Assembly: GCF_019059575.1 (NCBI RefSeq) | Contig: NW_024882197.1 | Coordinates: 62,001 to 126,000, forward strand | DNA: 64,000 bases | Origin: Amphibalanus amphitrite | Taxonomy: Eukaryota; Arthropoda; Thecostraca; Balanomorpha; Balanidae | Direction: 5' to 3' | Shown here: positions 2,095-30,215 of the stretch, one piece after another | Numbering within the stretch: the stretch's first letter is position 1 | How the letters are laid out: every line of letters starts with the position of its first letter | Notes under the pieces: generated by a model | What the model saw: only the letters and a program-made list of their open reading frames with translations | What the model was told of the DNA's origin: nothing | Databases searched by the model: none | Position numbers and translations under genes: made by a program

Positions 2095-2135
2095 TGGTCC
2101 GCTATAAAGCCAGGACCGGTGTTGGTCAGTGGCAC
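2095..2135 (+). promoter_or_regulatory. TATA promoter of the plus-strand cassette (predicted)
   Basis: TATAAAG lies at 2103-2109 in GC-rich DNA. Initiator-like TCAGT (2126-2130) and GCACTTC (about 2132-2138) lie 25-31 bp downstream. This is followed by a short exon-like segment ending in a strong splice donor at 2189/2190. A similar layout is found on the minus strand at 30209-30126 upstream of the mirror-image cassette, which supports both. Assignment to gene A is inferred from orientation and the absence of any other gene in between; it has not been shown by transcripts. Confidence 0.55.
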
Positions 2136-2189
2136 TTCTCACCGGCGAGGGGTGAGCATCGCAACACCTCTCCGAACGCAGCACCTCAG
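2128..2189 (+). other. predicted non-coding exon 1 (5' UTR) of gene A
   Basis: A segment of about 60 bp between the predicted transcription start and a donor of form CTCAG|GTAAGA (GT at 2190-2191). The next plausible acceptor for the message is CCGGCAG at 5342-5348, one base before the gene A ATG. An optional extra exon ending at 5173 is also possible. No ATG is present in this exon, consistent with a 5' UTR. Confidence 0.5.
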
Positions 2190-2340
2190 GTAAGAAACAT
2201 GAGCGGTATGCCGGGGTCGCGGGTGCAGTGCATGTGCTCTGGTGGTTCAACCAATTTAGAAGCATCTCCAGTTGTGGCTGACAGTTTAGATTCTAGAATT
2301 ATCCTGAAAGAAGTCATTGCGATTACTTTTGGAATGAAAA

Positions 2341-2619
2341 TGAGAGAGAGAGAGAGGGGGAGGGGGGGAAAGAGAGAGAGAGGGAGGGAGAGAGAGAAAG
2401 AGAGAGATAGAGAAAGAGAGAGAGAGAGAGAGAGAGAGAGAGAGAGAGAGAGAGAGAGAGCTAGAGAAAGAGAAAGAGAAAGAGAAAGAGAGAGAGAGAG
2501 AGAGAGAGAGAGAGAGAGAGAGAGAGAGAGAGAGAGAGAGAGAGAGAGAGAGAGAGAGAGAGAGAGAGAGAGAGAGAGAGAGAGAGAGAGAGAGAGAGAG
2601 AGAGAGAGAGAGAGAGAGA
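2341..2619. repeat. (AG)n microsatellite
   Basis: About 280 bp of nearly pure AG dinucleotide, with AGAGGG and AGAAAG interruptions in its first third. The Arg-Glu and Ser-Leu ORFs across it on both strands are low-complexity artefacts. It lies in the predicted first intron of gene A. Confidence 0.95.
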
Positions 2620-5098
2620 CGTCAAATTGATATCCGATTCAAATTGATCCAAATTAGTAATCAAATTGATATGGTTGGAAAAGCCACACCAAGCGAAACA
2701 CGAACCAAAACCGTGGGGGAAAAATACAGAACAAAACTTGGCACTTGCTGTAATAAAATGTTTACTAAATTTACAAAGTTGGATACTGAAATTAAGCTCC
2801 AGAAAATGCTTAATAATTTGTTTGAATTGACATACTTAATGCAAAATCGGCATTGGTTTGGTATTTGTATAAAGTCACGCACAAAAGTTGGCATCCGATT
2901 GCCATTTCAAATGCAAATTGGCATGCGTCATACTTCTGTTTGTGCATCTGGTCAACTAAAAGCCAACATTGATTGTACAAGAGGAAGGGCAAAACGTTCA
3001 CGAGGTTTCTCTGGAATATGTATACTCGTACTTTTTCGCCCACTTCGTAGTCACAGTTGCAGATATGAGATAAAGCGGTCGGTTGGCGCGTCTCGGGGGG
3101 GGGGGGGACCGATCAGATATATTCAGCTGCCGTCACTCGTTGCATACCTATACTGTATAGGGCATGATTCTGCATGTGCGAAAGGCGCAAGTGCAGATTC
3201 CACTTCTATGACCTGATAACTTTAGTTCTTCTTTTTGGGGGAGTGGATAAAAAGTTCTTTGGTAAAAGGCAGTTGCACGTGGCACTCACATATCAAAGTA
3301 ACTTCCTAAGTGTGTACTTACGGTTCCCGCTTCTCAAAACCTTCGAGTTTGAATACTCCGATTGCACGTAAGTCAATGCGTGATTAAGATAAAGTGAAAA
3401 GAAAGCAGCTGGCTTCCACTATTCTGCACTTCACCTCTTTTGAAATTTATTATTTCAAAAGGCGTTGTGAATGCGTAAGTGCTCACACCCGTAAGTTCTT
3501 GCGGCCGGGTTCAATGTTTTTTGCCATAAAACAGGTTAAATTAATATTTTCAAACAACGTGCCTTTAAATCGGATTAAAAACACAATTACCAACCAATTT
3601 TACATATCTAACTATTTTAGATTACAAGAGAAACAAATAAACTCTTAACTGGCAAATATCGCAGTCAAGATGCGTATACCTATTTATTTCATAAACTTTT
3701 CAACGATTTATTGTGTTCGCCTGCAGGTCCTGTTGTTTGACATAGTTTAATTGAGGAAAGAAGACTGTTTTATTACTAAAAAAAAAGCATTCTTTTTTAA
3801 ATGTGCGACATGCTTTGTACATGAAAAGTAATTAGTGATCGATATACTGAAAAGCAAAAAAAGAAATCAGACATCACTCTCCTCGTGCAATATGTAAAAA
3901 AAGTTTATCTTCTGGCACATTTTCGGTCTGATAACGAAAAGTAGCTATTTTGTTGGTGAGATCTGAGGGGTTTCAAAGTAAGTTAAAACAATGAAGAATA
4001 ATATGCTACACAATATAAGTGTTATAAGTACGATATATGCTATATGATATACCTAATAGACACTTCATCTTACCGGCCACAGCTCACACCGGCTTAAAAA
4101 TCAGATAGCATCAGATTCGACTCACTAGTTCACGCGCGGGTGTCCAGAAGCGGCATGAGTCTCCCACCGGCACCGCGCCCGTGACGCGTCCGCGACATCA
4201 GTGACATCAGTGACGCTTTACGCTCCTGACGTGACCGGCCGTGCTGACCTTGCCCGGACCGGTCTGGCCGCCATTCACCGCACGGTGACACGGATTGTGG
4301 CTCTCTGAGAACAGCTACGGACGGCTGCGTACGAAACAAAAACGCGTTATGAGACATCGGCTCATGAGACAGGCAGTCTTTAAAATGTGGTAACTCCCTT
4401 GCAAGAGATTTAATAGCTATCATCTATGCAGTAAAAGACGATGTTCATTGCAAAAGATGTTCTTCTGCTAGCTTAAGTAAATCTCTTACGATTTCTGTGA
4501 CACATTGAAACATATGACGTTGGTAGTTGTTTCATACTGAACGCATGACGAGAGATGCATGGGTCTTGGCCTTAATTCACTTCTTCAGCTTTTGTGTTTT
4601 GTGTCACTTAGAACATAGGGTATTAATGCCTATTAAAAACACGACGAGGTTGCGACAAGGTGAAAGGACTTCGGTACTTAAACATAACATGTGATCATGT
4701 CAGGTAGAGCACGTGCCAAGCAGCGCATATTATGCGTGGGATCGGAGAACGAGAGAGTCCCCTGTTCTGTTACCTACGTATCAGACATAATAAGGCTACC
4801 TGAAAGCTCTTGAATTATCTAATAATGCAAAGCTGAGGACATAATCAGTAAGCACAAACAGACAGGAAGACGTTTATCTTTGTCACCGTAGTACTAACAA
4901 TCCCTGGCTTCGTCCGTTAGTGTATAAATTGATAAGCGCATGATGCTAATAAGCGCAGACAGATAAAAACAGAATAACATGTTGAAATGAATGATGACGG
5001 TGATCTCGGAAGGTGCTGCTCATGTCCGACAGATGTCAATAATGCGATAGGCTATGGTAACGATATTGATATTAACATTTACATTCCGAGATTCATGT
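2620..5098. other. predicted first intron of gene A, otherwise unannotated
   Basis: Mostly AT-rich sequence with no supported gene. A short GC-rich island at about 4130-4330 with repeated GTGACATCAGTGAC-like motifs could be regulatory. It has no good splice signals or conserved ORF, so I do not call an exon. Confidence 0.4.
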
Positions 5099-28994: not shown

Positions 28995-30120
28995 GATAGT
29001 ATATGATAGATAGAGTTTGTTGGTTAAAAAGTTGTTACAAGATAATTGTGGCTATACCTAAGGTCGCCGCTAGTGCGACCGATGTTGCATGTTTGGCCAG
29101 GTGACGCTCGACACTAAATTTAGTGTTGAGTTATTTGCACTTGTCAAAACAAGGGACGTAGCAAGATGGGTGGTAAACTCTTATTTGACTTATTTATTTT
29201 ATTTTATTATTTATGACTTATTTGGAAGTCAAACATTACATCCATTGGCCATGTATCTTTTAGGAGGGGAGATATTTCGTCCAATAAAATTTTGCTTTTG
29301 TGATAAAGAAAATGATCGACACAAAAAATTCGTTCATGCTACGGTTCAATAATTTGAATACCTAAAGGACAAGTTCGCTTCAATTAAAGCCTTTTATTTT
29401 TAACAGGTGTGACAGCGGCAAATTTAAACAAACGATTGTATCCGCTATTACTACTTTGGGAACAAAACATTGTGAAAAGATATAAATGGGGTATGTCACA
29501 CATGGAAAAGCACAGGGATGAAACGCGTCGTGAAGCGCGTTGCACGCTGCCATGTGAGGATAGATTGTGCCGTACTGGGGTTTCTCCTCTCTTTTCCTTA
29601 ACAAATTGGAATACTGTATCTCATACTTGTAAGTATATACTCGTATTTGCGGGCTAGGTGTAACTACTTTCGGCACAGTTTGGGTATGAATTTCGAATCT
29701 ACTATCAGTTATTGCAATAAGTTCATGATAGTGTCAATGATTGCTGTCTTTGCTTAGCAAGTCAATTTATTTTGCATTTTTAAAAGCCAGCGTGATTGTG
29801 TTGTAGGACTGAAGATATTTCGAAAGTGAACCTTTAAAGCTAGCTGCCGCAACAATAGCCAAGGACCCTCACATTCTTGACATTACATATCACAACATAG
29901 CCGTGTCTCTGCTACCTGCTAAACCACTAAATCACTTCGCATTATAAACATTAGCATAATGAAGAAGTGCTTCATTCTTTTCATTTGTTTTGTAGATATG
30001 CAAAGCAATGAACGAAATTGCCATCATTTCCCATCACCATGGGAGGTAAGTTTTTCCAGGAGTACGGTCTCAAGAGGCAAGTCACTTTTTCTCTGAGCAC
30101 TCGACGACTGACTGGTGTCA
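28995..30120. other. predicted first intron of gene D, distal part
   Basis: AT-rich, no supported gene or repeat. Confidence 0.35.
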
Positions 30121-30125
30121 CTCAC

Positions 30126-30185
30126 CTGATGGCGCAGAGGAGATGCTGCAGTGCTGCTCACTCGGCGGCAGCGAGTGATGTCGGT
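30126..30185 (-). other. predicted non-coding exon 1 (5' UTR) of gene D
   Basis: On the minus strand a segment of about 55 bp runs from an initiator-like TCAC (about 30185-30176) to the donor CATCAG|GTGAGT (GT at 30125-30124). It shares short blocks with the plus-strand exon 1 (GTGAGCA, and CTC...GCGCCATCAG compared with GCAGCACCTCAG). No ATG is present. Connection to the acceptor at 26628-26627 is inferred. Confidence 0.5.
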
Positions 30186-30215
30186 GAACCGTCCCACCTG
30201 GCCTTTATAGGTGGC
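30176..30215 (-). promoter_or_regulatory. TATA promoter of the minus-strand cassette (predicted)
   Basis: CTATAAAGGCC on the minus strand, with TATAAAG at 30209-30203, inside a GC-rich block (30180-30500) containing a CCAAT motif on the minus strand at about 30268-30272. Spacing to the exon 1 donor (about 80 bp) resembles that of the plus-strand promoter at 2103. Confidence 0.55.

Follow-up and report, generated by a model that had tools for sequence, protein, structure and literature searches.

Barnacle cuticle, shell and glue hold many proteins without known relatives, and the described systems closest to the locus considered here come from several quarters. The cuticular proteins with YLP and GYR motifs (Tweedle, GCR1, CPF and resilin; PF02756 and PF02757), as described in PMC2932725, are secreted and composition-biased, carry Tyr motifs near their ends and are often encoded by clustered genes. 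The bulk cement proteins of barnacles (CP19, CP34, CP43, CP52, CP57, CP100 and CP105), in the accounts of PMC8371367 and PMC5099703, are likewise secreted and composition-biased, and the valine-rich midgut proteins of Lepidoptera are presented in PMC3843731 as a secreted, Cys-poor gene family. The locus lies in a stretch of 64,000 nucleotides (nt) of the barnacle Amphibalanus amphitrite, here called the window (NCBI RefSeq assembly GCF_019059575.1, contig NW_024882197.1, forward-strand positions 62,001 to 126,000; contig C700 of the 807.6 Mb genome searched). The forward primer of the A. amphitrite cement gene AaCP43, published in PMC5099703, has exact matches at two loci of that genome, each an ATG, against none for a control with the pattern reversed; the second primer also matches exactly at both, giving products of 1,347 and 1,326 bp (1,344 bp in the paper), which fits A. 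amphitrite or a very close relative. The locus contains a pair of neighbouring genes in two inverted copies, which probably encode secreted structural proteins of an extracellular matrix.

The window contains two convergent two-gene cassettes, A then B on the plus strand facing D then C on the minus strand, with an inner spacer of 14.1 kb. The coding features are as follows (lengths of proteins in amino acid residues, aa).

5350 to 6624, plus strand: coding sequence of gene A, 424 aa, a single coding exon after a ...ggcag/g acceptor; core from Cys40 to Cys376
7084 to 8478, plus strand: coding exon 1 of gene B, with signal peptide, CNPATGVGC-like array and first half of the core
7267 to 7848, plus strand: CNPATGVGC-like array of 11 units within exon 1 of B, with a period of mostly 18 aa (54 nt)
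8803 to 9342, plus strand: coding exon 2 of gene B, with second half of the core, Gly/Tyr tail and stop
24176 to 24913, minus strand: coding exon 1 of gene C, giving with exon 2 a protein of 425 aa
23444 to 23983, minus strand: coding exon 2 of gene C (gene model)
25417 to 26625, minus strand: coding sequence of gene D, 402 aa, mirror paralogue of A

The two coding exons of B (donor 8478/8479, acceptor 8802/8803) give a protein of 644 aa, and the intron of C sits at the same place; the B-type splice joins are taken from consensus sites. The N termini of A, B, C and D are all hydrophobic and were read by eye as signal peptides. The four proteins contain 15–21% Val, 12–15% Thr, 5–10% Arg and no Trp, have a computed isoelectric point (pI) of 8.2–10.3, and carry a Cys at either end of the core, followed by a Gly/Tyr tail. 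A second contig, C27, which is probably the other haplotype, gives matches to all four genes in the genome search.

C27:1456094-1457269, plus strand: match to D, named D'
C27:1457807-1458577 and 1458701-1459261, plus strand: match to C, named C'
C27:1486733-1487425 and 1486002-1486574, minus strand: match to B, named B'
C27:1488681-1489952, minus strand: match to A, named A'

The order on C27, D'-C'...B'-A', is again convergent, but the inner spacer is about 26.7 kb long. The sequence-only reading had described the genes as pairwise paralogues in convergent mirror order, and this is borne out by the inverted arms of the window, which lie in mirror order, and by the same order on C27.

These genes belong to a larger family. 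With A as query the genome gives matches at 14 places, spread over 12 contigs, and with exon 1 of C at seven; exon 2 of B finds nine, two of which are the A-type genes D and D' (expectation values, E, of 5.3e-4 and 3.9e-4), so that the A and B cores are linked. Counting near-identical contigs, which are presumably allelic, as alleles, the family has at least 11 genes at six loci, a number to be taken as a lower bound. At least seven are A-type (A, D and those on C203, C836/C467, C663/C150/C2280, C574/C717 and C1920/C759) and at least four are B-type (B, C and those on C203 and C836/C467). At C203, C836 and C467, too, an A-type gene has a B-type gene downstream of it on its own strand. Since the last two contigs are treated as one locus, the A-before-B order is found at three loci, and its recurrence outside the window supports the earlier view of A and B as co-arranged partners. 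In a tree of 16 cores, which carries a long-branch warning, A, D and the C27 copies join the A-type core of C203 (98/97), and B and C join its B-type core (100/100). The copies at C1920:7281-8366 and on C759 are alike over 230 residues by eye; the former has an internal TAG and is apparently a null allele. The family is defined by a core that runs from Cys to Cys over 337–339 residues, both Cys included, and by an acceptor, ...cag/RATG, placed one base ahead of the ATG. The former is found in all 17 cores measured (B', C', the B-type gene of C467 and the C1920 copy were left out), the latter in 21 of 21 gene models, alleles and the C1920 copy counted.

Of all that the locus shows, the core with its fixed length and two faces is the most surprising. 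In the A-type proteins it has 337 residues at 11 of the 13 intact places and 338 at the other two (C836 and C467). The cores of B and C have 338 residues, and those of the B-type proteins of C203 and C836 have 339 (178+161 and 251+88, respectively), the intron of the C836 gene being placed differently. The flanks vary; among 11 distinct genes the part ahead of the core has 26–289 residues and the tail 13–66. When five A-type cores are laid end to end without gaps, all 10 pairs are 24–51% identical, against a mean of 11–14% and a best single value of 22% at 120 other offsets, and the A-type core of C836 keeps the register after a shift by one (26–32%). A length kept within two residues, in cores that have diverged to about 25% identity, indicates a strict architecture, testable by structural and materials work.

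The distance between Thr residues of the core is even in 1124 of 1362 counts (up to 8 residues apart, each pair counted from both ends, in 7 of the 17 cores), compared with 50% after shuffling (z 22.8), and Thr alternates in each of nine cores (z 5.1–12.8). In the seven cores the parity of Thr is also that of Pro (z 9.4), Tyr (7.9) and Leu (3.3), while Ser (−5.9), Arg (−5.4), Lys (−5.4) and Gln (−3.5) have the opposite one; no parity is seen for Ile, Glu, Gly, Asp and Ala. Such a pattern would be expected of extended strands whose two faces differ. Conserved Pro-Gly pairs at core columns 77, 142, 186, 277 and 296 (0-based; each residue in at least three of five cores) may be the turns. The beta-prone, Cys-capped core and the secreted look of the proteins, both proposed earlier, are thus supported by the Thr parity, the end Cys residues and the signal peptides. 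An internal repeat of about 110 residues was considered as well; lag 109 ranks first of 120 lags (z 3.4), and profile comparison of core thirds gives probabilities of 31–72% with E from 3.5e-5 to 5e-4 in six comparisons. Because composition bias can yield such scores, no internal repeat is claimed.

The ends of the proteins have their own distinctive features. The pattern Y[LIV]PP (YLPP or YIPP) stands ahead of the first core Cys, with 1–12 residues between, in all 14 A-type models, and GYxYxxP follows the last Cys in eight of them (C836, C467, C663, C150, C2280, C574, C717 and C759). GYxYxxP is also found at the start of the B-type proteins of C836 and C467. These ends resemble cuticular protein motifs; PMC2932725 describes YLP/GYR-like motifs from several families of cuticular proteins and from some Drosophila eggshell and peritrophic-matrix proteins. 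However, the order in the family, YLPP first and GYxYxxP last, is the reverse of that usual in Tweedle, the motifs are matched by plain pattern only, the long fixed-length Val/Thr core between two Cys sets the family apart, and neither an RR nor a Tweedle domain turned up in those sequences that were scanned. Units of the CNPATGVGC-like array number 11 in B and 12 in the C27 copy of B; C has a single one. B has 24 Cys beyond its signal peptide, 22 of them within the array, while C has four in total, so that the earlier description of a Cys-rich partner holds for B and not for its mirror partner C.

In each mature protein an N-terminal arm leads to a Val/Thr/Arg/Gln core of 335–337 residues, which has a Cys on either side; the tail after it is of the Gly/Tyr or the GYxYxxP kind. 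The core would form a beta rod or sheet stack of fixed length, the end cysteines and tyrosine tails would connect the rods to one another, and A-type and B-type units may co-assemble. The array of B could act as an adjustable disulfide linker, and the faces of the core might bind chitin, other proteins or mineral.

The suggestion that the proteins fit no named family is supported within the libraries searched. Pfam, NCBIfam and PDB give no match at the curated cut-off for the sequences scanned, and no chitin-binding domain of Pfam (RR, CPAP) is found in them. The library scan at E ≤ 1 took in the whole of A and three exon-based pieces of B and C, leaving out D and exon 1 of C, and in it neither GYR nor YLP is found; both are also missing at E ≤ 10 from four relatives. 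In both scans the HMMER filters let short, weak motifs drop out. The best match below the cut-off is GRP (glycine-rich; E 0.011), in the Gly tail of exon 2 of B, followed by DUF7663 (E 0.17), T4_Spackle (E 0.44) and ComFB (E 0.44). In PDB, A as query has no match at E ≤ 1, and a profile of A and D has two, at E 1.3 and 6.9. Viral and prokaryote contigs yield no confirmed relative of A; other crustaceans may have relatives that already sit, unnamed, in eukaryote protein databases. None of the literature matches listed for the strings VVRT or TVQVP is relevant, and the CNPATG-type strings give an unrelated match only.

A matrix role for the products of the cassette is likely. The earlier idea of an extracellular matrix gains indirect support from the YLP/GYR-like ends, from the composition and from a cluster enriched in Thr and Val among the bulk cement proteins of Pollicipes pollicipes, which is alike by its description in PMC8371367, where it is a minor cluster left out of further analysis. 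The most likely site would be the organic matrix of cuticle or shell, with cement next. Several observations weigh against this interpretation. The lack of Cys is a hallmark of cuticular proteins in the account of PMC2932725, and B has many; GYxYxxP is missing from A–D in a plain pattern search, Gly/Tyr tails standing in its place. In a proteome of parietal and base plates, section 3.5 classes the cuticle proteins as RR and CPAP only (PMC11293433), and the words valine and threonine appear nowhere in the main text of that paper. On the structural side, B-type and A-type cores give no ungapped alignment (8–19% identity at offset 0, against a best of 20–25% at other offsets). In the seven cores Val has no parity to Thr, and hydrophobic residues as a class do not alternate in nine cores (z −2.0 to 1.8), so that the case for strands depends on Thr, Tyr, Pro and the polar residues. 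AlphaFold2, run on the A and D sequences alone, gives no usable model and hence no fold (predicted local distance difference test, 27.3; predicted template modelling score, 0.13).

The proteins could instead be specific to adhesion, as bulk proteins of adult or cyprid cement rather than of cuticle in general, and we regard this as unlikely. The Pollicipes cluster would fit it by description, and barnacle cement is reported in PMC5099703 to be high in beta-sheet and to contain many barnacle-only proteins. In A. amphitrite itself, however, the bulk cement proteins fall into Leu-, Gly- and Cys-rich clusters (PMC8371367) and, set against the family by description, differ from it in being Leu-, Gly/Ser- or Cys-rich (PMC8371367, PMC5099703). 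Two proteins of the cyprid cement gland, lcp3_36k and lcp2_57k, are, like the family, basic and Arg-rich, one with few Cys (3) and the other with more (12). By their description in PMC8639568, lcp3 differs in its 10.5% of aromatic residues and 27% helix by circular dichroism, and lcp2 in its 56 Lys.

Some other extracellular coat, such as an egg envelope, a peritrophic matrix or larval cuticle only, is rather improbable. Similar short motifs do occur in the Drosophila eggshell and peritrophic-matrix proteins mentioned above, and the moth midgut contains valine-rich, Cys-poor secreted proteins, but no specific sequence link to such coats was found. As described in PMC3843731, the moth proteins are acidic (pI 3.3–3.8), Pro-rich, 16–29 kDa in size and marked by xPA(V/I)xx motifs, while the A–D family is basic, rich in Thr, Arg and Gln, and about 45–65 kDa.

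The two arms of the duplicated cassette are alike in blocks, whose lengths and identities are far from chance.

5098 to 6497 and 25478 to 26877, inverted: 1400 nt, 96% identical
7945 to 8490 and 24164 to 24709, inverted: 546 nt, 84% identical
8767 to 9302 and 23484 to 24019, inverted: 536 nt, 96% identical
5098 to 6498, plus strand: homogenised block on the A side, 96% identical to 26877-25480 on the minus strand, from 252 nt 5' of the ATG to just past the second core Cys

A blastn comparison of arm with arm recovers 5098–6498 (96%), 8767–9326 (94%) and 7945–8490 (84%), with six further matches of 43–56 nt, all inside the same coding exons; the blocks take in 252 nt upstream of the ATG of A and, within the B/C intron, 12 and 36 nt. 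On the 5' side of the A block (4950–5098) the arms are only 31–34% identical, and from the tail of the A coding sequence onwards (6480–6750) 47–50%, while alleles are 94–99% identical in both places. Within the A/D block, synonymous divergence (dS) is 0.065–0.121 between arms and 0.056–0.097 between alleles. No site between 5406 and 6107 tells the arms apart in both haplotypes; in the block, five sites group the arms by haplotype and none crosswise. Thus dS between the arms of the A/D block is near the allelic level, and the edges to unalike sequence are sharp. Since the arms share only coding-exon blocks, with A/D divergence at about the allelic level and unalike sequence adjoining, gene conversion is indicated, and for the A/D block it is well supported. 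In the B/C pair the signal is uneven. Exon 1 has 76 sites that divide by arm, 72 of them within the first 294 nt of the 528, and dS over the whole exon is 0.29–0.36 between arms, against 0.037–0.078 between alleles, so that its 5' part lacks the mark of conversion. The first 159 codons of exon 2 also count against the proposal, with dS about twofold higher between arms (0.049–0.067) than between alleles (0.024–0.033) and nine sites dividing by arm, one by haplotype and one crossed.

That the cassette was duplicated recently and has simply not yet diverged, without any gene conversion, is very unlikely. The 96% identity of the A/D block would suit it, and the full-length B/C intron scores above its shuffles between arms (6.5; shuffles mean −28.1, maximum −12.5), which it does because both intron ends are alike. 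However, likeness stops abruptly within exons, and the arms are unalike in the flank of the A block, where alleles are 94–99% identical. Between the arms, the middle of the B/C intron is unalike too (−31.5; shuffles mean −34.1, maximum −23.0), and so are the first introns, which score 45.0 against a mean of 45.7 and a maximum of 64 in 20 shuffles. The A-B spacer, at 27.0, also stays below the shuffle maximum of 30.5 (mean 18.5). An old duplication of the cassette, followed by repeated exon-sized conversion between the inverted arms, would explain the data best, most strongly for the A/D block. Conversion across the arms would keep the two doses alike, and the mirrored cassette would be a compact case of gene conversion restricted to exon blocks between inverted copies. 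It is possible, though we offer it tentatively, that the family represents a structural module so far without a name, a Cys-capped beta rod of fixed length with Thr/Tyr on one face and Arg/Gln on the other, deployed as A and B matrix pairs in barnacles, with doses held alike by exon-sized conversion across a palindrome with a spacer of 14–27 kb.

The 5' regions of A and D were predicted from the sequence on both arms.

2103 to 2189, plus strand: predicted TATA box and 5' non-coding exon of gene A; donor CAG/GTAAGA, GT at 2190
30126 to 30209, minus strand: predicted TATA box (30209-30203) and 5' non-coding exon of gene D; donor CAG/GTGAGT, GT at 30125-30124

TATAAAG stands at 2103 (plus) and at 30209 (minus), with the donors 84–87 nt downstream, an arrangement that is plausible as promoter and first exon on both arms. 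The promoter regions are unlike beyond 14 nt, with a local score of 21 against a mean of 18.3 and a maximum of 30 in 200 shuffles. Of the similar promoter, non-coding exon and first intron that the sequence-only reading saw on each arm, the placement of TATA box and donor is thus retained as plausible, while the promoter and intron sequences are not alike. A long GA microsatellite (2288–2669) lies in the predicted first intron of A, and similar tracts give matches at many sites of the genome. The end of exon 1 in the B-type gene of C203 is likewise followed by a GA tract.

It is extremely unlikely that the mirror image is an assembly artefact, a chimera of two haplotypes: the assembly does seem to hold allelic contigs, but the convergent order recurs on C27, where the spacer is longer; introns, tails and spacer are not the same in the two arms; and close to the genes the C27 counterpart of each arm matches it at 93–98%, introns included. 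Farther upstream of A (1667–4110) the match between the window and C27 falls to 85–91%.

The spacer between the cassettes contains an open frame of 844 aa (16255–18789, minus strand) that looks by eye like a non-LTR (long terminal repeat) retrotransposon polymerase. Between 19730 and 20849 it has dense 11-nt repeats of the GACGTCGG type, with inverted clusters at 19750–19870 and 20706–20826 (92%). Elsewhere in the window, an open frame of 1310 aa (56137–60468, plus strand) has the look of an LTR retrotransposon and is flanked by two direct repeats of 153 nt, whose 99% identity suggests a young insertion. An inverted repeat of 179 nt (39417–39595 and 40442–40620) is 92% complementary, with 846 nt between its halves.

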